Source of the DNA: Candidatus Kapaibacterium sp.
GTDB taxonomy: Bacteria > Bacteroidota > Ignavibacteria > Kapaibacteriales > UBA2268
Assembly: GCA_026418625.1 (NCBI GenBank)
Contig: JAOABA010000018.1
Location: 1 to 34,005 of the forward strand
Direction: 5' to 3'
DNA: 34,005 nucleotides
The notes under the pieces are model-generated. The model worked only from the letters and a program-made list of their open reading frames with translations. It had not been told where the DNA came from and ran no database searches. The first letter of the stretch is position 1. The number at the start of each line of letters is the position of its first letter. Shown in pieces: positions 18,348 to 34,005 of the stretch. A program made the translations under genes and the position numbers.

Positions 18348-18349
18348 AT
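18320..18349 (+). promoter_or_regulatory. Inverted repeat overlapping the recombinase start codon
   Basis: ATTTTCG (18320-18326) and CGAAAAT (18343-18349) form a 7-bp inverted repeat around the duplicated word CGTCCC, and the right arm covers the first bases of the ATG. In RNA it would hide the start codon. As DNA it could be a recombinase or repressor site. Function is inference. Confidence 0.3.
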
Positions 18350-19463
18350 GAAAAAAAAGAAAAATTCGACTGAAAAAAAAGATACTACTACTTTATCTAA
18401 AATTCAAAAAGTAGTGCTTAGAAAGAAAAAAATTTCGTCCGGATATAGTCTTTACCTTGATATACATAAAAATGGAAAGCGGATAAAAGAATATCTCCAA
18501 CTTTATATTTCTGATAGCAACAAACCAACTGAATCTGATAAAGAAACTTTGAGATTAGCTGAAAAGATACAAACTATTCGAGCTTTAGAACTACAAGCTG
18601 ATTTTCATAATGAACCAGACTTTTCACCAAAGAAAAAAAGTTTTAAGTCTTTCTTAGCTGATAATATAAATAATAGCACACATTTAAAAACAAATACAAT
18701 CAAAAAAAAGATTGCTTTACAAAGGATAATAAATGTATATCATCCTGAACAGCTGCTTTTTAGAGATATAAATCAAGGATGGCTCGAAAATTTTAGGAAC
18801 TATTTATTAAGCAGGTATAAACGGAATACCGCTGACCGTTACTTTTCTGAATTAAAAACAAATCTTACGATTGCTGTTAAGCAAGGAATAATAAAAAGTA
18901 ATCCAATGTTTATGGTTGAAAATATCGGTAGGGATAAATCTTTACCAAAATATTTAACACAAGAGGAAATGAAAATGCTTAAAGCAACGAAGTTAAAGAA
19001 CAGCACTTTAAAAAGAGCTTTTTTCTTCGCTTGTTATTCTGGTTTGAGGCTTGGTGATATAAAATCTTTGAAATGGGAAAACATATTTGAAAGTAATGGT
19101 GATTTTTTTATCAGGATTACTCAAGAAAAAAGCAAATCTGAGATAATCAATCCTCTTTCGCCCGAAGCAGTTAAGTATTTAGTAGAGAGAGGTAACAATA
19201 ATGATTACGTTTTCCAACTACCCAAAGAAGCAGTAATAGATAAAAGCTTAAAACGATGGGCAAAAAGAGCTGGACTAAGCAAGAATTTAAATTTCCATAT
19301 GTCAAGACATACCTTTGGGACTCTTTGCATCAGCTCTGATATTGACTTATATATAACATCAGCTCTTATGGGTCATTCTGATACTCGAGTAACACAGGTA
19401 TATGCTAAAATTACTGATAAACGAAAAAAAGATGCTGTGATGAAACTTCCGAGTATAGAGTAA
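18348..19463 (+). CDS. Tyrosine recombinase / integrase
   Basis: This 371-aa site-specific recombinase has a lysine-rich N-terminus with an arm-type DNA-binding region (~18-55, 'SGYSLYLDIHKNGKRIKEYL'). A SAM-like core-binding domain follows (~98-190), then the catalytic domain. The catalytic set is complete: Arg234 in 'SGLRLGDI', a lysine near 258-263, His317-x-x-Arg320 in 'FHMSRHTFG', His343 in 'LMGHSDTRVT' and Tyr352 as nucleophile. It resembles integrases of Bacteroidota conjugative and mobilisable elements. It points away from the adjacent tRNA 3' fragment, its likely target site. No excisionase, relaxase or mobilisation gene is visible in the window. Confidence 0.92.
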   Translation: MKKKKNSTEKKDTTTLSKIQKVVLRKKKISSGYSLYLDIHKNGKRIKEYLQLYISDSNKPTESDKETLRLAEKIQTIRALELQADFHNEPDFSPKKKSFKSFLADNINNSTHLKTNTIKKKIALQRIINVYHPEQLLFRDINQGWLENFRNYLLSRYKRNTADRYFSELKTNLTIAVKQGIIKSNPMFMVENIGRDKSLPKYLTQEEMKMLKATKLKNSTLKRAFFFACYSGLRLGDIKSLKWENIFESNGDFFIRITQEKSKSEIINPLSPEAVKYLVERGNNNDYVFQLPKEAVIDKSLKRWAKRAGLSKNLNFHMSRHTFGTLCISSDIDLYITSALMGHSDTRVTQVYAKITDKRKKDAVMKLPSIE

Positions 19464-26153: not shown

Positions 26154-26876
26154 TTACTTCTGGAAGAAGGTCGGAGAAGTTCTTAGTTTTTTTAGTAATT
26201 CATCAGTAGGATGAAACCACCAATCACCTTTTTGGGGATCATCCCAAACATAACTAAATGGCAACATTTTATGTTCACGTTCAAAACAGTCAATAATAGA
26301 ATAATTAATTACGATTTGATACAAGAAAGGCTGAGCTGATTCATTAATGGGAAATTCAAAGTGACCGCAAACAATAGTAGAGGGGTTTAAATTCCATCTA
26401 ATTTCTCCTAAATATAATTTATGAATATTATTTTCAACTGGCTGACCATTCAAAAAAGGCTCAACTTTTAAAATCAAACGAATTGGAATGTCTTTACTAT
26501 GTGATTGAACTGTGCAGGAAACGTCTCCTAAAGGGCGTTTTAATTCCATTCCTTCTACCATATTTGATATTTTGATTGAAACATCTCGAATATATTTTAA
26601 TGTGTGTAAATCGTAGATTTGTTCTCTTCTTGATTTGATTTCCTCAGTTCGATAATTATTTCCTTTGGGATGACTGCTATTGTATCTTTCAATTTCTGAA
26701 TGGCAATCAAAACATAATGGTATTAAGTTGTCTATATCATTATTGTTATGATTTTTGTCTATGTGATGAATTTCAATATTAGTAGAGCATTGTTTACCAC
26801 ACAAACAACAATGTCTTGAACACCATAATAATATTTTGGTTCGTATCTTTTTAGGTATTTGTTTTCTTTTCGGCAT
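26154..26876 (-). CDS. HNH endonuclease family protein at the end of the type I RM operon
   Basis: This 240-aa protein begins with a complete HNH nuclease motif: zinc cysteines Cys23/Cys26 and Cys55/Cys58, 'EIHHID' (catalytic His37/His38), Asn50 in 'DIDNLIPLC' and His59. The N-terminus is very basic (MPKRKQIPKKIR), fitting DNA contact. Residues ~95-240 form a beta-rich domain ('IPIRLILKVEPFLNG', 'IVCGHFEFPIN') that I do not recognise. It might recognise a DNA feature or a partner. The gene starts 16 bp after hsdM, so it is probably the last gene of the restriction operon. HNH proteins act as nucleases, often against invading DNA, but its target here is unknown. Confidence 0.8.
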   Translation of the reverse strand: MPKRKQIPKKIRTKILLWCSRHCCLCGKQCSTNIEIHHIDKNHNNNDIDNLIPLCFDCHSEIERYNSSHPKGNNYRTEEIKSRREQIYDLHTLKYIRDVSIKISNMVEGMELKRPLGDVSCTVQSHSKDIPIRLILKVEPFLNGQPVENNIHKLYLGEIRWNLNPSTIVCGHFEFPINESAQPFLYQIVINYSIIDCFEREHKMLPFSYVWDDPQKGDWWFHPTDELLKKLRTSPTFFQK

Positions 26877-26892
26877 TTCTTTTTGTTTCTCC

Positions 26893-28503
26893 TTATATAG
26901 GTGGCAATCCTAATTCTCTCAAAAATTCGTTATGCTTGTCTCTACTCATTTTAATTTTCTCATTTATTTCTTTCAGTTTAGCATTTACTTCGTTTAAGTC
27001 AATTTCTTTATCTTCAATCGCTGTGCTTACATATCTTGATATATTAAGATTGAATTCATTTTTCTCGATTTCTTCCATTGAAACTCTGCGGGAATAACGT
27101 GTTTCTTCTTTTCGCTCTTGGTATGTTTCAACTATTTTTCTAATATGTTCGGGAAAAAGGTTGTTTTGTCGTTTTCCCTTTTCATAGTGTTCAGCCGCAT
27201 TGATGAAGAGAACGTCGTCAAATTTTTTGCACTTCTTCAATACTAAAATGCAAACGGGAATTCCTGTTGAGAAAAACAGATTTGCCGGTAGCCCTATCAC
27301 TGTGTCGATATTTCCGTCTTTCAGCAATTTGGTTCTTATTCGCTCTTCAGAGCCACCTCTGAACAAAACCCCGTGCGGTAAAATAATCGCCATTGTTCCT
27401 TCTTTGCTAAGATAATGAAAGCCGTGTAATAGAAAGGCAAAGTCGGCTGCCGATTTAGGGGCTATTCCATAACCTTTGAAACGAAAATCATCTTTTAGTG
27501 TTTCCTTCGGTTCCCAGCGGTAACTGAATGGAGGGTTAGCTACAACTGCATCAAACTCCATTTTTTTTGCTGGATTTGTCTCATTTAAAATATTCCATTC
27601 ATTTAGCAGGGTATCACCGTGATATATTTCGAACTCGGTATCTTTGACCCCGTGCAAGAGCATATTCATTCGCGCAAGGTTGTAAGTTGTTATATTTTTT
27701 TCCTGTCCGTAAATTTTGCCAATTGTTCCTCCTGATTCAATCATTTTTTTTCGGACATTTAGCAATAAAGAACCTGAGCCACAAGCAAAATCAAGCACTC
27801 GTTCTATTTTATTCCTTTTGCCTTTCTCTGGGTCTTGGCTGTCGAGCGTTACAATCTCTGAAAGAATGTCCGAAATACGCTGCGGTGTGTAAAACTCACC
27901 TGCTTTTTTGCCTGAGCCTGCTGCGAATTGTCCTATCAGGTATTCGTAAGCATCACCCAAAATGTCTATGTCAGTTGTAAATTTATTAATACCTTCGGAA
28001 ATTTTCTGAATTATTATGCAAAGCTTCTTGTTACGTTCATCGTAGTTTTTTCCGAGCTTATCAGAATCCAGATTGATTTCCGAAAATAATCCCTTAAAAG
28101 TGCGGTCGAAAGATTCTTCTTCGATGTATTTAAAACCCTTCTGTAAAGTTTTGAGTAATTCTGTGCTTTGAGTTCTGGCAAGGTTAGAAATACTGTTCCA
28201 TAAGAACTCCGGCTTAATAATATAGTGTATTTTTTTACGCATCTGGTCTTCGAATACATCAACATCTGCTTGATTTTGTTCATACCACAATGATAAAGCC
28301 GAACGCCCTCCATTGCCCTGAAAATCGGGATAATCCCTGCCCAATAGCCTTTTTGCTGCTGCCTCGTAATTATCCGAAAGATATTTCAGGAACAAAAAAG
28401 ATAGCATATAATCGCGAAAATCATCAGCATTCATTGAGCCTCTTAACACATCTGCCAGATTCCAAAGCGTTTTTCCAAGTTCGTTATGGTTATTTCCTGT
28501 CAT
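26893..28503 (-). CDS. hsdM: Type I restriction-modification DNA methyltransferase subunit HsdM
   Basis: This 536-aa N6-adenine methyltransferase is the modification subunit of the type I complex. The N-terminal helical HsdM domain ('TLWNLADVLRGSMNADDFRD') is followed by 'GEFYTPQRI' (202-210) and the SAM-binding 'DFACGSGSLLLN' (238-249). The catalytic motif is NPPF (323-326). The C-terminal coiled region ('LNEVNAKLKEINEKIKMSR') contacts HsdS. Length fits the family. With two HsdM and one HsdS it methylates host sites, and adding HsdR gives restriction. It lies 9 bp after the PrrC-like gene and 16 bp before the HNH gene in one minus-strand operon. Confidence 0.96.
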   Translation of the reverse strand: MTGNNHNELGKTLWNLADVLRGSMNADDFRDYMLSFLFLKYLSDNYEAAAKRLLGRDYPDFQGNGGRSALSLWYEQNQADVDVFEDQMRKKIHYIIKPEFLWNSISNLARTQSTELLKTLQKGFKYIEEESFDRTFKGLFSEINLDSDKLGKNYDERNKKLCIIIQKISEGINKFTTDIDILGDAYEYLIGQFAAGSGKKAGEFYTPQRISDILSEIVTLDSQDPEKGKRNKIERVLDFACGSGSLLLNVRKKMIESGGTIGKIYGQEKNITTYNLARMNMLLHGVKDTEFEIYHGDTLLNEWNILNETNPAKKMEFDAVVANPPFSYRWEPKETLKDDFRFKGYGIAPKSAADFAFLLHGFHYLSKEGTMAIILPHGVLFRGGSEERIRTKLLKDGNIDTVIGLPANLFFSTGIPVCILVLKKCKKFDDVLFINAAEHYEKGKRQNNLFPEHIRKIVETYQERKEETRYSRRVSMEEIEKNEFNLNISRYVSTAIEDKEIDLNEVNAKLKEINEKIKMSRDKHNEFLRELGLPPI

Positions 28504-28512
28504 AATAATTTT

Positions 28513-29574
28513 TTAATATTTAAAATTGTACTTTTCTTTAATTTTATTGAAAACATCTTTGAAGATAGCTTCTTGCTCAGGTGCCATTTTATTAAATTGA
28601 AATCGATAAGAATTTTGGTGCGAAAGTGAATTAATCATTTCTAAAACTTTATTTGGTTTATCAACTTTTATTTCTGACAAAATAAAACCGAGCTTTCCAG
28701 AACCAATAAATGAAGAAATATTTTCAATCAGTTGTCTCAATAATACAAAATGATAAAGAAAGAGTTCATTCTGTATAGCATCATTTAAAATTTGCATTAG
28801 ATGAAGATGAAATAAAAATACATCTTTATTGTGTTCTTTTAATTCAAATTCCTCCCCAATTTTGGAAAGAATAAAAGTTTTTGTGTTATTTTTGAATTTG
28901 TCGCATTTATCACCTCTTTTTAACTTATCAAAAAGGATAGCATAGAGGCCAATATGGTGAGTTGCTATTATTATTTTTCCATTGAGATAATTTCTTTTGA
29001 TTATATCAAAAATTGAATCTGCAGTAATGAAAATATTTTGTTCATCTAAACTTGAAACTGGGTCATCTATAAAAAAATAATCATTTTGATTACTTGTCCA
29101 TTCATCTACTTCAATAAGTGCAAGGAAAAAGCACCATACGAAAATTTTTTCCTCTCCTCTTGAAATCTTTATGGATCGTCCATCTGTTTTTAATGAAAAA
29201 GTTATTGATTCAATACCCTCCTCTGGATTAATGTGTGGATTTAATTCAAAAGAGTATATCGGTTTATAGCATTCTAATTTTTCATTAAGTTTATCTGGGT
29301 TTTCTATTAAGAAGCTATGATATTTATTTAAGCGGCTGGGAATAATTCTTAATTTTATGTTTGCATTATTATTTTCTTCATCATTATCCCAAACAAAAAG
29401 GTCTTCGCTATAAGCATTGTAATATACACCGTTATGTATGCCATCCTCAGTTTTTATAATGTTCTTATACTCAACAGATAGTCTTGTTTTACCCATAGAA
29501 TTAAAAGCGAAAATCAGAATAATTGGTTCGTTAAGCGACTTTAATTGTTGTGCTATGTTAATTAGACTACTCAT
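28513..29574 (-). CDS. prrC: PrrC-type anticodon nuclease
   Basis: This 353-aa protein combines an ABC-type ATPase with a C-terminal tRNase domain. The P-loop is FNSMGKT (24-30, within 'FAFNSMGKTRLS'). It is followed by 'YYNAYSEDLFVWDND' (51-65), which I recognise from PrrC proteins. The ABC signature is ISRGEE (137-142) and the Walker B is 'FFIDDPVSSLD' (167-177). 'ATHH' (204-207) is the switch histidine. The C-terminal domain carries Arg280, Glu284 and His319, spaced like the Arg-Glu-His catalytic triad of E. coli PrrC. PrrC cuts tRNA-Lys in the anticodon loop when a phage inhibits the associated type I enzyme. Position between hsdS and hsdM supports that role. Length is slightly below E. 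coli PrrC (396 aa). The tRNA target here is unproven. Confidence 0.85.
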   Translation of the reverse strand: MSSLINIAQQLKSLNEPIILIFAFNSMGKTRLSVEYKNIIKTEDGIHNGVYYNAYSEDLFVWDNDEENNNANIKLRIIPSRLNKYHSFLIENPDKLNEKLECYKPIYSFELNPHINPEEGIESITFSLKTDGRSIKISRGEEKIFVWCFFLALIEVDEWTSNQNDYFFIDDPVSSLDEQNIFITADSIFDIIKRNYLNGKIIIATHHIGLYAILFDKLKRGDKCDKFKNNTKTFILSKIGEEFELKEHNKDVFLFHLHLMQILNDAIQNELFLYHFVLLRQLIENISSFIGSGKLGFILSEIKVDKPNKVLEMINSLSHQNSYRFQFNKMAPEQEAIFKDVFNKIKEKYNFKY

Positions 29575-29586
29575 TTTCGTTCATAC

Positions 29587-30996
29587 TTATATTGGAAACA
29601 AGCCCTGAAGCAAACCTTTCTTGTGTTGTTTCAATAATTCTATTTTTTGCTTTTGAGCATTTATTAAATCATCTAATGAAGATAAACAATCGGCGATTTT
29701 TTGCTGCTCAGGAAGAGAGGGGAGGGGAATATGAATTGTCTTTATTTCATTTTTGCCAACTTCAATAAAAGTGGAACCGGACGCTTTTTTAATAAATATA
29801 TTTTTATTGATAATTATCCAGTAATAAACAAAAATGTTGAAATTTTCATCATTAACAATAAAAGACTGAAAACCCTGATTAGTACAACATTCATTAGCAG
29901 CTATTGCCGCATCACCAATTGTTGCGCGTGTTGTAACAAGAATAGCCCCCTTAGGTAATAGTTTAGCTGATGAATTTTTTAATCCTTTTTCCGTAATTTT
30001 TCTTTTACTTTCTAAAACATATCTTTCCTTAACTTCTGTTGGGGTAAACCAGTTTATATTACCATCCCAATAACTGGGATTTTTTGTGTCTGGTGTACCA
30101 CCTCCTATAATCTCAGCTATTTCCCCCAATTTTTTCACTACCCATTCCCCGCTATTTTTAAACTCTGGGAATCGGAGTCGGGGGATGTTTTTGTCGCCGG
30201 TTTCAGAAGCTTCAGAAGGCGAGGAATCACCTGAAACCATTGAGCCAGTCGAAGGGGACGAAGGGTGCGGAAAGAGATTTTGCAGCAAGCCCATTTTGTG
30301 TTGTATGTATAGCTCCAGTTTTTGCTCTTCGCCTTCAATTACTTCATCTAAAGTAGAAAGACAGTCAGCGATTTTTTGCTGCTCAATAGTTGATGATGGT
30401 AAAGGAACTTTTAGATTTAAAAATGCTCCTTTTGTAATATTGAATCTAGTGATTCCCTGAGCCAATATTTCGATAGATTTACGATAAATTGGGCTATGAA
30501 ATAAGTACTGAGAGAATTCAGGTTTTAACCTTTCAAGTGAAAAGGGCCTGAAAGAAAAACAAAAACTATTTAAGTAAGTTGGCTCATCTGGTTCTGTTAA
30601 AACTACTGAGGCGTATCCAACCTCATTTGGAGTTTCAGAGGATGTTGTAATAAGAATATCGCCTTTGTGAATTGAATTTTGATTTTCATCATCTGCAATT
30701 TCAACAAGTGAACATTTTGTTAAGTCAACTTTTGAATTATCAAATACTTGCTTATAAGTAATAAAAGGCTTCCCTTTACCAAAATCTTTAGCGGATTTGC
30801 CATTTAAGCCGTTTATTGTTTGACCTAATTGGCTTAGTTTCTTATATTTCCATTGTTTATCTTTAAACTTCGGGAATCTGAGCCGGGGGATGTTTTTGTC
30901 GCCGGTTTCGAGAGCCTCAACAGGAATATTTTTTCCCGAAAACACTTTGGTGGTTTTCGGATTTATAGAACTCTTATTTTCGGTATCATTATTCAT
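29587..30996 (-). CDS. hsdS: Type I restriction-modification specificity subunit HsdS
   Basis: This 469-aa protein has two target-recognition domains (~45-215 and ~275-430), each followed by a conserved helix: 'IEQQKIADCLSTLDEVIEG' and 'PEQQKIADCLSSLDDLINA'. The two domains each read one half of a bipartite DNA site, and the helices set the gap between the halves. Each domain is preceded by the same segment ('ETGDKNIPRLRFP'), a duplication also visible in the DNA. The link between the halves is long and Ser/Pro-rich ('HPSSPSTGSMVSGDSSPSEA'). The ATG overlaps the stop of the GIY-YIG gene by 4 bp, and the PrrC-like gene begins 12 bp downstream. Confidence 0.94.
   Translation of the reverse strand: MNNDTENKSSINPKTTKVFSGKNIPVEALETGDKNIPRLRFPKFKDKQWKYKKLSQLGQTINGLNGKSAKDFGKGKPFITYKQVFDNSKVDLTKCSLVEIADDENQNSIHKGDILITTSSETPNEVGYASVVLTEPDEPTYLNSFCFSFRPFSLERLKPEFSQYLFHSPIYRKSIEILAQGITRFNITKGAFLNLKVPLPSSTIEQQKIADCLSTLDEVIEGEEQKLELYIQHKMGLLQNLFPHPSSPSTGSMVSGDSSPSEASETGDKNIPRLRFPEFKNSGEWVVKKLGEIAEIIGGGTPDTKNPSYWDGNINWFTPTEVKERYVLESKRKITEKGLKNSSAKLLPKGAILVTTRATIGDAAIAANECCTNQGFQSFIVNDENFNIFVYYWIIINKNIFIKKASGSTFIEVGKNEIKTIHIPLPSLPEQQKIADCLSSLDDLINAQKQKIELLKQHKKGLLQGLFPI
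30157..30204 (-). repeat. hsdS internal direct repeat, copy 1 (between the two recognition domains)
   Basis: This 48-bp segment matches 30862-30909 at 44 of 48 positions by my count. It encodes 'ETGDKNIPRLRFPEFK' in front of the second recognition domain. Weaker protein similarity continues for about another 12 residues towards the N-terminal side ('VSGDSSPSEAS'). Confidence 0.8.
30862..30909 (-). repeat. hsdS internal direct repeat, copy 2 (before the first recognition domain)
   Basis: This is the partner of 30157-30204, in the same orientation and about 700 bp away. It encodes 'ETGDKNIPRLRFPKFK' in front of the first recognition domain. The flanking DNA also holds an 8-bp inverted repeat (CCGAAAAC at 30936-30943 with GTTTTCGG at 30953-30960). 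Confidence 0.8.
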
Positions 30997-31310
30997 TTGT
31001 TTTCTGTTTTTTGATTGACTTTTTGTTTTATTTTGTCGTTGTCTTTGGCATCATTAGACTCAGGAAGCGTTTTGGGAGTATCTTTGGCTTTGATTTCGAG
31101 TTCCTCAACTACTGTTGGAGTTTTTAAATCCTCGCCATCAATTCGTTCATATTCTTCAAAATATACCAACTTAACAGGCAAATGCTTTTTAGTGTGGTTA
31201 GCTACTTCGACGGCTTGATGTTGAGCCAATCGAAATTCTAAATTTTTTGTTCTACCGGTATAATAAATGCCAAAGGCACACTTCAATATATGCATCCACC
31301 CTTTACTCAT
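30993..31310 (-). CDS. GIY-YIG-fold protein, probably catalytically impaired
   Basis: This 105-aa protein has the first half of a small GIY-YIG nuclease: 'HILKCAFGIYYTGRTKNL' (residues 7-24), 'FRLAQH' with the conserved Arg27, and 'HTKKHLPVKLVYFEEY' (39-54). In homologues this is followed by a helix with the catalytic Glu (pattern REKQI..W). Here the sequence turns after 'ERIDGE' into a charged tail rich in Lys, Asp and Pro. The first conserved Tyr also appears replaced by His7. Both changes suggest loss of DNA cleavage, with a possible structural or regulatory role left. It overlaps hsdR by 8 bp and hsdS by 4 bp, so it is translated as part of the restriction operon. Confidence 0.78.
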   Translation of the reverse strand: MSKGWMHILKCAFGIYYTGRTKNLEFRLAQHQAVEVANHTKKHLPVKLVYFEEYERIDGEDLKTPTVVEELEIKAKDTPKTLPESNDAKDNDKIKQKVNQKTENK

Positions 31311-34005
31311 AGGCTTTCAGTCCGCTTATTTCTTTACCTTCTGCCATTTTTTTGAGCAATGGAATAAGTTCTCTCATCATATCAAGTTCCCGTTTGGTTC
31401 GTTCTTTCCATCCAAGATCAAACGGAGCAAAGAGCTCGCTTAATTTTTCAGCATCAAAAACCATACGGCTAACGATAGCTTCGGAGAATTGTTTCAATGC
31501 TGAAAACTCCAAACCGTTTTTCTGTGCGATTCGGGTTAATTCTTTTGCAATTTTTTCAGCTTTAAATTTTTGGTAGCCATCCCGAATTTGTTGTTCGCTA
31601 AGTGGCTTTCCAACTTCCAGAGTTTTTATATATTCTTCTAAGTCATCTTTTTCGTCCATAAGGTTAGCACTACTACTCATAACGCCAATCAACTGGTCGC
31701 GTGTTAATTCTTTCTTTTTTGGCTGCTGTTGTGTGTATTTAGAAATCAGATTCATAATATAATCGTAATCAATCAAAGCCGAAGCAAAAAGAACAAATTC
31801 AAAATCGAGTTGCTGAATGTCTTCAGGGGCGTTTTCGCCTTCTTTTTGCTGTATTTCTTTTAATTGCTTTGCTATTTCCAGATATGAACTGCGGAAAGAT
31901 TGCAATTGTTCTTCTGGCAACAATTCCTCAATTCTGTTTTTTTGTTTTTCAGTCAAATCAGTGTATTGGTCAAGTTGTGTTCTGAGCCGTTGCACTTCCT
32001 TAAAGCGATTAATAAACTCCACACGTGCCATATCGCCTTTGATATTGTAAACTTCCTGCGGCTCAGCGACAAGGTTTTTATCCGACATCCATTTTTCCAT
32101 AGCCTTAACAGCTGCTTCATATTTCTCAATAACCTTTTGAGCTGGTTCAACCAACCAGATTTCTTTGGCTTGGCTGATATCTTCACCGCTGAACAAAGCA
32201 ATAGCTTTGTCCACTTCCTCTTGTTGCTGACGAAAATCGAAAATATTACCATAAGGTTTAGTATCATTCAGAATGCGGTTTGTTCGGCTGAATGCCTGAA
32301 TTAACCCGTGATATTTAAGGTTTTTGTCCACATACAAAGTGTTCAGATATTTTGAATCAAAACCAGTAAGCAACATATCCACGACAATTGTAATGTCGAT
32401 TTTATTTTTGTGTGGAAAGTCTGAGTTGCTGAATTTCTGGAACTTAATACGTTGCTGAACATCCTGATAATAGGGATCAAAATCATATATACTATAATTT
32501 GTGCCATATTTGAAGTTGTAATCATCAATTATTTTTTGCAGAGCTTTCTTCTTTTTTTCAGGTTCAACTTTGTTATCCTCTTTTTCCTGCTGTAAATCTT
32601 CCTGCAACTGTATAACATCCTTGTTCCCTTCGGCAGGTGGCGAAAAGACACAGGCGATGTTTAAAGGTGAAAAATTTTCATCTTCCTTCTGTTGATTTTG
32701 CTGAATGGTTTTAAACAGTTCGTAGTATTCAATAGCATCATTAATGGAAGCTGTTGCGAATAAAGCATTAAAACGTCTTTTATTTGTGGCTGCATAGTGT
32801 TTTTTCAGAATGGTTTTAATAACAGCCTGTTTGTGTTCAGTAGTGTTGAATTCAACTTTCTTTTCAGGTTTGAAATAGTCAATATGAAAACGCAAAACGT
32901 TCTTATCTTCAATTGCATTAGTTATAGTGTAAGAATGAAGCTGCTTCTGAAAAATATATTGAGTTGTAGCATAGAAGCCTTCAGTTCCATTAATAAGTTT
33001 ATAAGTAGCGTTTTCATCAAAAATGGGTGTTCCAGTAAAACCGAATAATTGAGAATTTGGGAAGAATTCTTTAATGGCTTTGTGATTTTCGCCAAACTGC
33101 GAACGATGGCACTCATCAAATATAAAAACGATTCGTTTATTGCGAAGTGGTTCGAGCCGTTTTCTGAAATCTTTATTATTAGGTTCAAGAGCCAGACCTA
33201 ATTTTTGAATAGTGGTAACAATAACTTTGTTTGCATAATCTTCTGAGAGCATTCGCCTTACTAAAGTTTCGGTATTAGTGTTTTCCTCGACGCAACCTTC
33301 CTGAAATTTGTTGAATTCCTCACGTATTTGGCGGTCGAGGTCTTTGCGATCGACAACAAATAAACACTTTTCAATGTCAGGATTGTCTTTAAGTAATGTA
33401 GATGCCTTGAAAGAGGTTAAAGTCTTACCGCTACCAGTAGTATGCCAGATATAGCCGTTACCTCTGTTTTGGTGAATGCAATCCACAATAGCTTTAACTG
33501 CATAAATCTGATAGGGTCTCATTATCATTAGTTTTTGTTCACTTGCTACCAAAACCATATATCTACTAATCATTTCGGCAAGTTTGCATTTACTTAAAAA
33601 TTTTTCAGCGAAATCGTCTAAGTGTGTGATTTTTTTATTTTCCTCATTTGTCAGTTGATAGATTGGCAAATAATGTTCATCAGCATTAAAGCTGAAATGT
33701 GAATTGTTATTATTAGCAAAGTAATAAGTGTTAGCACGATTGCTAACAATGAAAAGCTGTATAAAGCAAAGTAAAGAGTTGGTGTAACCGTTTCCCGGAT
33801 CGCTCTTGTAATCAACAATTTGCTGCATAGCTCTACGTGGGCTAATTGCCAAGCTTTTAAGCTCAATTTGAACTAAAGGTAAACCGTTAATGAGCAAAAT
33901 TACATCATAGCGTTGATAGCTATTTTGAGTGTTTATCCTAAGTTGATTAATAACTTCAAAATCATTTTTACACCAATCTTTGATATTTACCAAAGTGTAA
34001 TACAA
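31303..34005 (-). CDS. hsdR: Type I restriction endonuclease subunit HsdR (N-terminus beyond window)
   Basis: The frame runs off the right edge, so about the first 100-150 residues are missing and the TTG at 34005 is not the start. The remaining 900 residues hold the end of the PD-(D/E)xK nuclease (Asp34, Glu48 and Lys50 in 'VQIELKS'). Next come the helicase-like motor ('WHTTGSGKT' Walker A, 'IFDECHRSQFGE' DEAD-like motif, 'FGFTGTPIF' motif III, and 'LLTGFDSKYLNTLYVDK' and 'QAFSRTNR' in the second RecA lobe). The helical C-terminus binds the HsdM-HsdS core. HsdR pulls DNA through the complex using ATP and cuts unmethylated foreign DNA. It is the first visible gene of the operon hsdR-giy-hsdS-prrC-hsdM-hnh. 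Confidence 0.96.
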   Translation of the reverse strand: MYYTLVNIKDWCKNDFEVINQLRINTQNSYQRYDVILLINGLPLVQIELKSLAISPRRAMQQIVDYKSDPGNGYTNSLLCFIQLFIVSNRANTYYFANNNNSHFSFNADEHYLPIYQLTNEENKKITHLDDFAEKFLSKCKLAEMISRYMVLVASEQKLMIMRPYQIYAVKAIVDCIHQNRGNGYIWHTTGSGKTLTSFKASTLLKDNPDIEKCLFVVDRKDLDRQIREEFNKFQEGCVEENTNTETLVRRMLSEDYANKVIVTTIQKLGLALEPNNKDFRKRLEPLRNKRIVFIFDECHRSQFGENHKAIKEFFPNSQLFGFTGTPIFDENATYKLINGTEGFYATTQYIFQKQLHSYTITNAIEDKNVLRFHIDYFKPEKKVEFNTTEHKQAVIKTILKKHYAATNKRRFNALFATASINDAIEYYELFKTIQQNQQKEDENFSPLNIACVFSPPAEGNKDVIQLQEDLQQEKEDNKVEPEKKKKALQKIIDDYNFKYGTNYSIYDFDPYYQDVQQRIKFQKFSNSDFPHKNKIDITIVVDMLLTGFDSKYLNTLYVDKNLKYHGLIQAFSRTNRILNDTKPYGNIFDFRQQQEEVDKAIALFSGEDISQAKEIWLVEPAQKVIEKYEAAVKAMEKWMSDKNLVAEPQEVYNIKGDMARVEFINRFKEVQRLRTQLDQYTDLTEKQKNRIEELLPEEQLQSFRSSYLEIAKQLKEIQQKEGENAPEDIQQLDFEFVLFASALIDYDYIMNLISKYTQQQPKKKELTRDQLIGVMSSSANLMDEKDDLEEYIKTLEVGKPLSEQQIRDGYQKFKAEKIAKELTRIAQKNGLEFSALKQFSEAIVSRMVFDAEKLSELFAPFDLGWKERTKRELDMMRELIPLLKKMAEGKEISGLKAYE

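Follow-up and report, generated by a model that had tools for sequence, protein, structure and literature searches.

A contig of 34,005 nucleotides from Candidatus Kapaibacterium sp. (JAOABA010000018.1), analysed here over its full length (hereafter the window), ends in a six-gene cluster in which the subunits of a type I restriction-modification system are interspersed with genes for a GIY-YIG protein, a PrrC-like anticodon nuclease and an HNH protein. All six genes are encoded on the minus strand in the order hsdR, GIY-YIG, hsdS, prrC, hsdM and hnh; the open reading frames (ORFs) agree with the order and positions reported in a first-pass annotation, domain scans confirm the assignments, and the tight packing described there, with overlaps or gaps of at most 16 bp, is likewise found, successive junctions measuring −8, −4, +12, +9 and +16 bp. 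The hsdR gene (31303–34005) encodes 900 amino acids of a restriction subunit of the EcoR124 type (EcoR124_C, 2e-63), its 5′ end lies off the contig, and the PADLOC HsdR model aligns with it from model position 89 of 976 onwards; since the window is the entire contig, the gene is incomplete and the N-terminus absent. A truncated GIY-YIG ORF of 105 amino acids (30993–31310; GIY-YIG domain, 9e-8) shares 8 bp with hsdR and 4 bp with hsdS. It is followed by hsdS (29587–30996; 469 amino acids), a specificity subunit with two Methylase_S stretches, by prrC (28513–29574; 353 amino acids), by hsdM (26893–28503; 536 amino acids; TIGR00497, 1e-116), a type I N6-adenine methyltransferase, and by hnh (26154–26876; 240 amino acids), whose product combines an N-terminal HNH domain with a C-terminal domain predicted, at low confidence, to be mostly beta. 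An HsdR with EcoR124_C, an HsdM and an HsdS with two recognition domains identify the system as type IC (EcoR124), with the N-terminal part of hsdR lying beyond the contig. None of the five terminator-like sites found on the minus strand of the window falls at an operon junction; a promoter scan of the window was uninformative, with 33 sites predicted and 31 expected. The six genes are probably transcribed as one unit.

The prrC product belongs to the PrrC-like ABC-ATPases of the anticodon nuclease type: the PADLOC PrrC model covers residues 2–352 (E = 7.6e-96), and Pfam detects AAA_13 (1e-13). A search of 395 genomes of the same phylum, the source genome included, recovered PrrC-like proteins at E ≤ 1e-8 in 22 other genomes, and in all 22 the gene lies in a type I locus, the genes of these loci having been typed with local profiles made from the window and its relatives. 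An alignment of 24 proteins, to which the member from locus L038 was added from the GIY-YIG search (loci and genomes of the comparison carry L and G numbers), shows that the Walker A G-K-T, the Walker B I-D-D, the switch histidine H206 and the signature residues S138 and E141 are invariant, with G140 present in 22 of the 24. Each residue of the anticodon nuclease triad, R280, E284 and H319 (encoded at 28618–28737, minus strand), is also present in 24/24, in the arrangement R-X3-E-...-H known from Arg320, Glu324 and His356 of Escherichia coli PrrC (PMC2610378); in the window protein a serine stands before the triad histidine. The association of PrrC with restriction-modification, which the first-pass annotation had taken as established, is thus borne out by the genomic contexts, by the triad and by published descriptions of a latent anticodon nuclease inside the type IC operon (PMC3874165, PMC2610378, PMC3710099). 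The closest functional parallel is the E. coli type IC system EcoprrI, which likewise combines hsdR, hsdM and hsdS with an anticodon nuclease gene inside the operon (PMC3874165, PMC2610378) and an ABC-ATPase with an R-E-H triad (PMC2610378). Unlike EcoprrI, the window has the order R-S-prrC-M and carries the GIY-YIG ORF and the terminal hnh gene. The protein also differs from E. coli PrrC, which is longer than 353 amino acids, and shares about 32% identity with E. coli plasmid proteins annotated as anticodon nucleases; a sequence search of solved structures with the window protein gave no match. PrrC in a type I operon is therefore an ordinary arrangement, and this part of the cluster is a new member of an already known system; by analogy with EcoprrI, the protein is very probably silenced by the restriction complex and freed to cleave tRNA. 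The G+C content of prrC (27%) is so far below that of the adjoining hsd genes (35–38%) that the gene looks to have come from another source.

Gene content was compared across 27 loci in which hsdR is followed by hsdS, the window excluded; 26 of them derive from the 30 genomes of an HsdR search and one is L038, and the other four HsdR-search genomes were set aside (G417 and G460, no context; G237, hsdR only; G262, represented by the decayed locus L145). The interval between hsdR and hsdS holds no ORF of at least 60 amino acids in 14 loci and a single ORF in 13, encoding PDDEXK_3 (three), YhcG (three and one fragment), RhuM (two), a 23S-IVP-like protein (one), GIY-YIG (two) and one unscanned product. 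Between hsdS and hsdM, PrrC is found in 14 of the 27 loci, and the scanned intervals that lack it contain YhcG (L233), SIR2/HerA with RhuM (L240), an OLD-like ATPase with a helicase (L243) or a zeta-toxin-like protein (L247); a Pfam scan gave no match for the proteins at this position in L234 (5853–6506) and L251 (6937–7581). These contents define two cargo slots, in the layout hsdR–slot 1–hsdS–slot 2–hsdM, and exchangeable cargo is seen in both slots across loci L232–L266 of the sampled phylum, which makes the layout a source to mine for defence genes. The pattern is consistent with the restriction-linked ORFs described in Campylobacter (PMC4619093, PMC2610378): type I loci of C. jejuni likewise carry unrelated passengers, the rlo genes, such as RloF with its GmrS domain between hsdS and hsdR (PMC4619093, PMC2610378), whereas the passengers of the window are a GIY-YIG gene and, 3′ of hsdM, an HNH gene. 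A comparable layout is seen in four plasmids, of Prosthecochloris, Parabacteroides, Comamonas and Methylomonas, where the place of PrrC is taken by an ATPase gene, identified by a PrrC match in Parabacteroides, by motifs seen by eye in Prosthecochloris, and by position and name in the other two. The hsdM gene of the Prosthecochloris plasmid is unlisted in the annotation and was recovered as two ORFs, and in the Methylomonas plasmid slot 1 is occupied by YhcG while an IS3 element precedes hsdM.

GIY-YIG nucleases depend on the tyrosines of the GIY and YIG motifs and on a conserved glutamate as catalytic residues, and the slot 1 protein of the window does not have all three. The second tyrosine is kept, and the first is a histidine, a replacement found only in the window among 59 distinct family sequences (one other has phenylalanine and one a gap). 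The C-terminal half with the glutamate is absent: similarity to the family ends at residue 58, and the tail formed by residues 59–105 (30993–31136, minus strand), in the region where relatives have the glutamate, matches none of the compared relatives and is rich in charged residues, the family pattern ...RIDEAFYREKQVQGWSRKKKEALI being replaced by ...RIDGEDLKTPTVV... in the window. The glutamate is missing from four of the 59 sequences, the window among them, and in an order-wide search 24 of 25 matches extend at least to query residue 81, the window's own ending at 61. Because the first tyrosine is replaced and the glutamate region gone, the protein is probably dead as a nuclease, its frame still open and overlapping both neighbours. 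Over residues 1–58 it shares 76% identity with the L038 protein, which places it with the repeat-linked GIY-YIG family described below; the window genome also encodes a second, complete and more distant member (C1:86375–86644; 40%).

The site at which this gene entered the operon can be located by comparison with an empty junction. In L180, whose HsdR is about 80% identical, hsdR and hsdS overlap by ATGAGTAA, and the GIY-YIG ORF starts at this same overlap in L038, in L268 and in the window. In L038 the end of hsdR is repeated 3′ of the GIY-YIG gene over 38 of 42 bp, the next best match being 19, and L145 retains a decayed version of the same insert between remnants of hsdR and hsdM, as read by eye from the DNA. 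Related inserts occur inside restriction genes: in both L049 (7237–10182) and L050 (1023–4054), an EcoEI-type HsdR carries a GIY-YIG unit with tandem repeats in one and the same loop, immediately before the DECH motif; the unit is in frame in L049, and in L050 the gene is split. Viral contigs searched with the GIY-YIG protein gave no match, plasmids gave five records at 44–55% identity, and a plasmid DNA search with one GIY-YIG/repeat unit gave no match. Linkage of the GIY-YIG gene to type I loci, raised by the first-pass annotation, therefore holds in part: the order hsdR-GIY-hsdS-prrC-hsdM is found in two other genomes and an hsdR-GIY-hsdM remnant in a third, but outside such loci the family is mostly solitary. 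Nor is the presence of a GIY-YIG gene in such an operon as unusual as had been suggested. A GIY-DUF4357 gene lies 3′ of hsdM in the Parabacteroides plasmid (30 bp gap) and in the Prosthecochloris plasmid (3 bp from the longest ORF or 126 bp from the annotated start), and a GIY-YIG gene adjoins hsdS in a Lactococcus plasmid (PMC4420470). The GIY-DUF4357 genes resemble the window in being annotated as GIY-YIG and in forming part of a type I operon that also encodes a PrrC-like ATPase, but they belong to another family, with 250–275 amino acids as annotated, a DUF4357 domain and a different position, as against the truncated 105 residues in slot 1; Pfam detects the GIY-YIG domain in the Parabacteroides protein and not in the Prosthecochloris one.

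The HNH motif, composed of two CxxC pairs, HH, N and H, is intact in the product of the last gene (C23/C26, H37-H38, N50, C55-C58-H59), with a Pfam HNH match (2e-4, 21.8 bits) barely above the cut-off of 21.4. A scan for close relatives across one genome per species (84,980 species) yielded three full-length proteins at 54–57% identity, encoded by an ANME-1 archaeon, a Desulfobacca and a Pirellulales genome; the fetched flanks of all three lack hsdRSM. One of them (L064) has a lone N6-methyltransferase upstream, with one small ORF between; the fetched flanks of the other two (L065, L066) contain no methyltransferase match. One relative adjoins a small toxin-antitoxin-like pair, and one, whose HNH gene has an in-frame stop, adjoins a gene for a transposase associated with repetitive extragenic palindromic (REP) elements, with a thymidylate-synthase-like gene further off. 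Among 148 relatives of the window genome, five have a match confined to the HNH domain, the best (38%, residues 3–94, L002/L054) not next to hsd genes, and the family is absent from all 38 related type I loci. The proposed linkage of this gene to type I systems is thus contradicted, within a small sample, by 0/3 full-length relatives and 0/38 related loci. Matches to the C-terminal half in six of 394 other genomes of the phylum (E 0.001–0.01) were judged to be chance on inspection of the ORFs. Viral contigs searched with the HNH protein gave no match, and plasmids gave three records confined to the HNH domain. A structure model (mean pLDDT 62) suggests the mostly beta C-terminal domain; a fold search with this low-confidence model gave no match at E ≤ 0.001, the best Foldseek match being to PDE6-delta-type sandwiches (E = 4e-3), followed by Cap5 (E 0.02–0.03), and these matches were not used as proof. 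PADLOC matches lie within residues 5–109, and no similarity to ZorE or other known HNH defence effectors was seen beyond the HNH domain. Most plausibly, hnh is a rare single gene of wide, scattered occurrence that appears to have landed 3′ of hsdM.

Taken together, we consider it probable that the cluster is a type IC operon with PrrC in slot 2, an inactive GIY-YIG passenger in slot 1 and a separately acquired HNH gene at its 3′ end. Under this account, type I restriction would form the first line of defence, and the restriction complex would keep PrrC in check until a phage blocks restriction, whereupon the freed PrrC would cut tRNA. The GIY-YIG gene would have landed in an ancestor where hsdR and hsdS overlap by ATGAGTAA, and later lost its nuclease function; we suggest that its frame has been kept open because it passes translational coupling on from hsdR to hsdS, so that it would now serve as an inactive bridge. 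The HNH gene would have joined separately, as a putative stand-alone DNA-cutting defence gene profiting from transcription of the operon. The layered defence proposed in the first-pass annotation accordingly survives for the type I core and its PrrC-like second line. For GIY-YIG and HNH it is doubtful, since the GIY-YIG protein has lost two motif positions and its family is mostly solitary, and since the HNH gene shows no type I linkage in the three full-length relatives and 38 loci compared. As one of the nuclease genes here is a damaged passenger, the packing of such genes into a restriction operon need not mean layers of defence; overall, the cluster is a variation on a known type.

Several observations weigh against this account. 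The duplication of the hsdR end is visible in only one of the three scanned junctions, L268 (22/42) and the window (24/42) showing none. The five-gene arrangement recurs in L038 and L268 with a complete GIY-YIG gene, which means that the combination is no isolated case and that the gene might be useful there. GIY-YIG genes are over-represented at restriction and modification genes, which adjoin them, lie one or two genes away or host the insert at 7 of the 16 best-scoring loci (the 16 best places outside the window among 42 listed; 14 from the same order, two from the same class) and are present at 4 of 40 phylum loci (40 of 62 places, chosen partly for contig room; L145 recognised by eye only), versus 0 of 20 control stretches, which were picked by hand by shifting along contigs from 16 of these genomes. 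The HNH sample consists of three relatives. In other loci hsdM is followed by nuclease genes of different families (two plasmids with GIY-DUF4357, and L237 with GmrSD), which may point to a downstream slot that is functional; the account as a whole is drawn from sequence comparison.

The GIY-YIG ORF could instead encode a selected non-catalytic small protein, such as a DNA-binding regulator or a type I assembly factor, rather than a relic. The frame has stayed open despite two lost motif positions, both overlaps are kept, and the hsdR/GIY-YIG overlap ATGAGTAA is identical in L038 and L268; we nevertheless regard this as unlikely, given a charged tail unlike that of any compared relative, other glutamate-less sequences (L121, L129, L145) that are broken differently rather than sharing one truncated form, and the broken state of the same insert in L145. 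Similarly improbable, in our view, is that hnh occupies a third slot behind hsdM, one in which accessory restriction nucleases recur, and works with the operon's methylation. The GIY-DUF4357 genes of the Parabacteroides and Prosthecochloris plasmids, GmrSD 141 bp after hsdM in L237 and the methyltransferase ahead of the L064 relative speak for such a slot, but GmrSD is the case of a single locus among the 27 with hsdM last; 13 of these loci have no co-directional ORF of at least 60 amino acids within 150 bp, L237 alone has one of more than 200, two of the four plasmid loci have no listed nuclease after hsdM (the gene table being incomplete), and the L065 and L066 genes have no methyltransferase match nearby. 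Least credible is a single co-evolved unit in which GIY-YIG and HNH act as extra effectors with the type I complex and PrrC: tight packing with overlaps, the recurring five-gene core, nuclease-type folds in 8 of 13 slot 1 genes (PDDEXK_3 and YhcG three each, GIY-YIG two) and the intact HNH motif are outweighed by a GIY-YIG protein without its C-terminal half and first motif tyrosine, an HNH family absent from 38 related loci with three full-length relatives lacking hsdRSM, and a slot 1 that is empty in 14 of 27 loci.

An unexpected lead, apart from the type IC operon with its passengers, is the repeat-linked GIY-YIG family itself, which appears to behave as mobile and is situated among hairpin repeats. 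With one GIY-YIG match taken per locus and the backward pattern as control, the repeat core TTCGRC-N1-4-GCTCA occurs 118 times in the 80.5 kb within 600 bp of 56 GIY-YIG genes (34 have one, 22 none). The remaining 592 kb of these loci contain 37 copies and the 243.6 kb of control stretches none, one of these stretches (L172) containing a GIY-YIG gene by local profile and lacking the core; the backward pattern was found once near GIY-YIG genes and neither elsewhere in the loci nor in the controls. No core was found in 45.7 kb within 600 bp of 30 Y1-transposase genes (of 43 found in 11 genomes), while GIY-YIG loci from ten of the genomes searched for Y1 genes have the core in 9 of 13 cases, on both sides in eight. 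The bases flanking the core are complementary: after identical flank pairs were collapsed (72 to 51 strict, 155 to 114 loose), positions 1, 2 and 3 pair in 100, 94 and 92% of the 51 distinct strict copies, with several pair types per position, against 59, 32 and 33% in shuffles that ignore kinship of the copies. Twelve of the 32 copies in G238 form six inverted pairs 40–43 bp apart, counted by eye. Hairpins of the form TTCGAC-NN-GCTCA, with varying but complementary stems, cluster around the genes of the GIY-YIG loci L118–L157 and L038–L053, for example in L153 (5815–6256) and L121 (5244–6663).

Genome-wide, the correspondence between GIY-YIG presence and repeat abundance is loose, and a driving role of the gene is borne out only weakly: among 24 genomes of the same order the median core count is 24.5 with a close GIY-YIG gene (n = 12) versus 10 without (n = 12; no match at E ≤ 1e-12). 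The backward control exceeds one third of the count in G062, G036, G022, G034, G025, G026, G001, G006, G023, G019, G061 and G063 and amounts to about one third in G068 and G020, so that many of the small counts lie close to background. G263, with 76 copies, is absent from the GIY-positive list, though it is perhaps outside that sample. G007 contains 242 copies (control 11) and no close GIY-YIG gene. That any small passenger gene draws the repeat was rejected by comparison of few, non-random loci, with the core at 0/7 PDDEXK_3, 0/10 YhcG, 1/3 IVP and 2/8 RhuM loci against 35/57 for GIY-YIG; both positive RhuM loci, L049 and L050, also hold GIY-YIG inserts. In the window genome (3.3 Mb), the exact 14-base sequence CTTCGACNNGCTCA occurs twice, once inside an ORF elsewhere and once in the linker of hsdS, where it matches the REP-like core CTTCGACTGGCTCA (30241–30254, minus strand); the window GIY-YIG gene has no core within 600 bp, this nearest exact copy being about 740 bp away. 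Import of hsdS from a repeat-rich genome would fit the presence of the repeat in its linker.

We propose that these GIY-linked repeats are REP/REPIN-like, some with a TGACA tail. They resemble REPIN–RAYT systems and the CGTC-tagged REPs in that a nuclease-type gene is surrounded by short hairpins, of which some form inverted pairs, and they differ from REPIN–RAYT in that the flanked gene is a GIY-YIG gene rather than a Y1 transposase, none of the 30 Y1 loci having the core. The likeness to CGTC REPs concerns hairpin form; as described in PMC3733652, those REPs have Bacteroidetes among their hosts, include a variant TGTC tag and apparently lack a dedicated transposase. Literature searches in which most subscription papers were outside the scope found neither a link between GIY-YIG and "repetitive extragenic palindromic" or "REP elements" nor the repeat core itself, entered as letters in six forms. 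A testable idea nonetheless arises, that of a GIY-YIG nuclease family linked to hairpin repeats. It is conceivable, albeit speculative and on balance not the expected outcome, that the window GIY-YIG gene is the relic of an undescribed mobile element in which such a nuclease would cut and spread TTCGAC-NN-GCTCA hairpins, as RAYT do for other REPs, with a preference for restriction genes as landing sites. If so, GIY-YIG could be the enzyme for palindromic repeats reported without a dedicated transposase, and, provided that the sampled phylum is Bacteroidota, as we infer, the idea would bear on the Bacteroidetes REPs of this kind (PMC3733652).

Elsewhere in the window, a distance of about 6.7 kb separates the 3′ end of the operon from a gene for a phage-type integrase (18348–19463).

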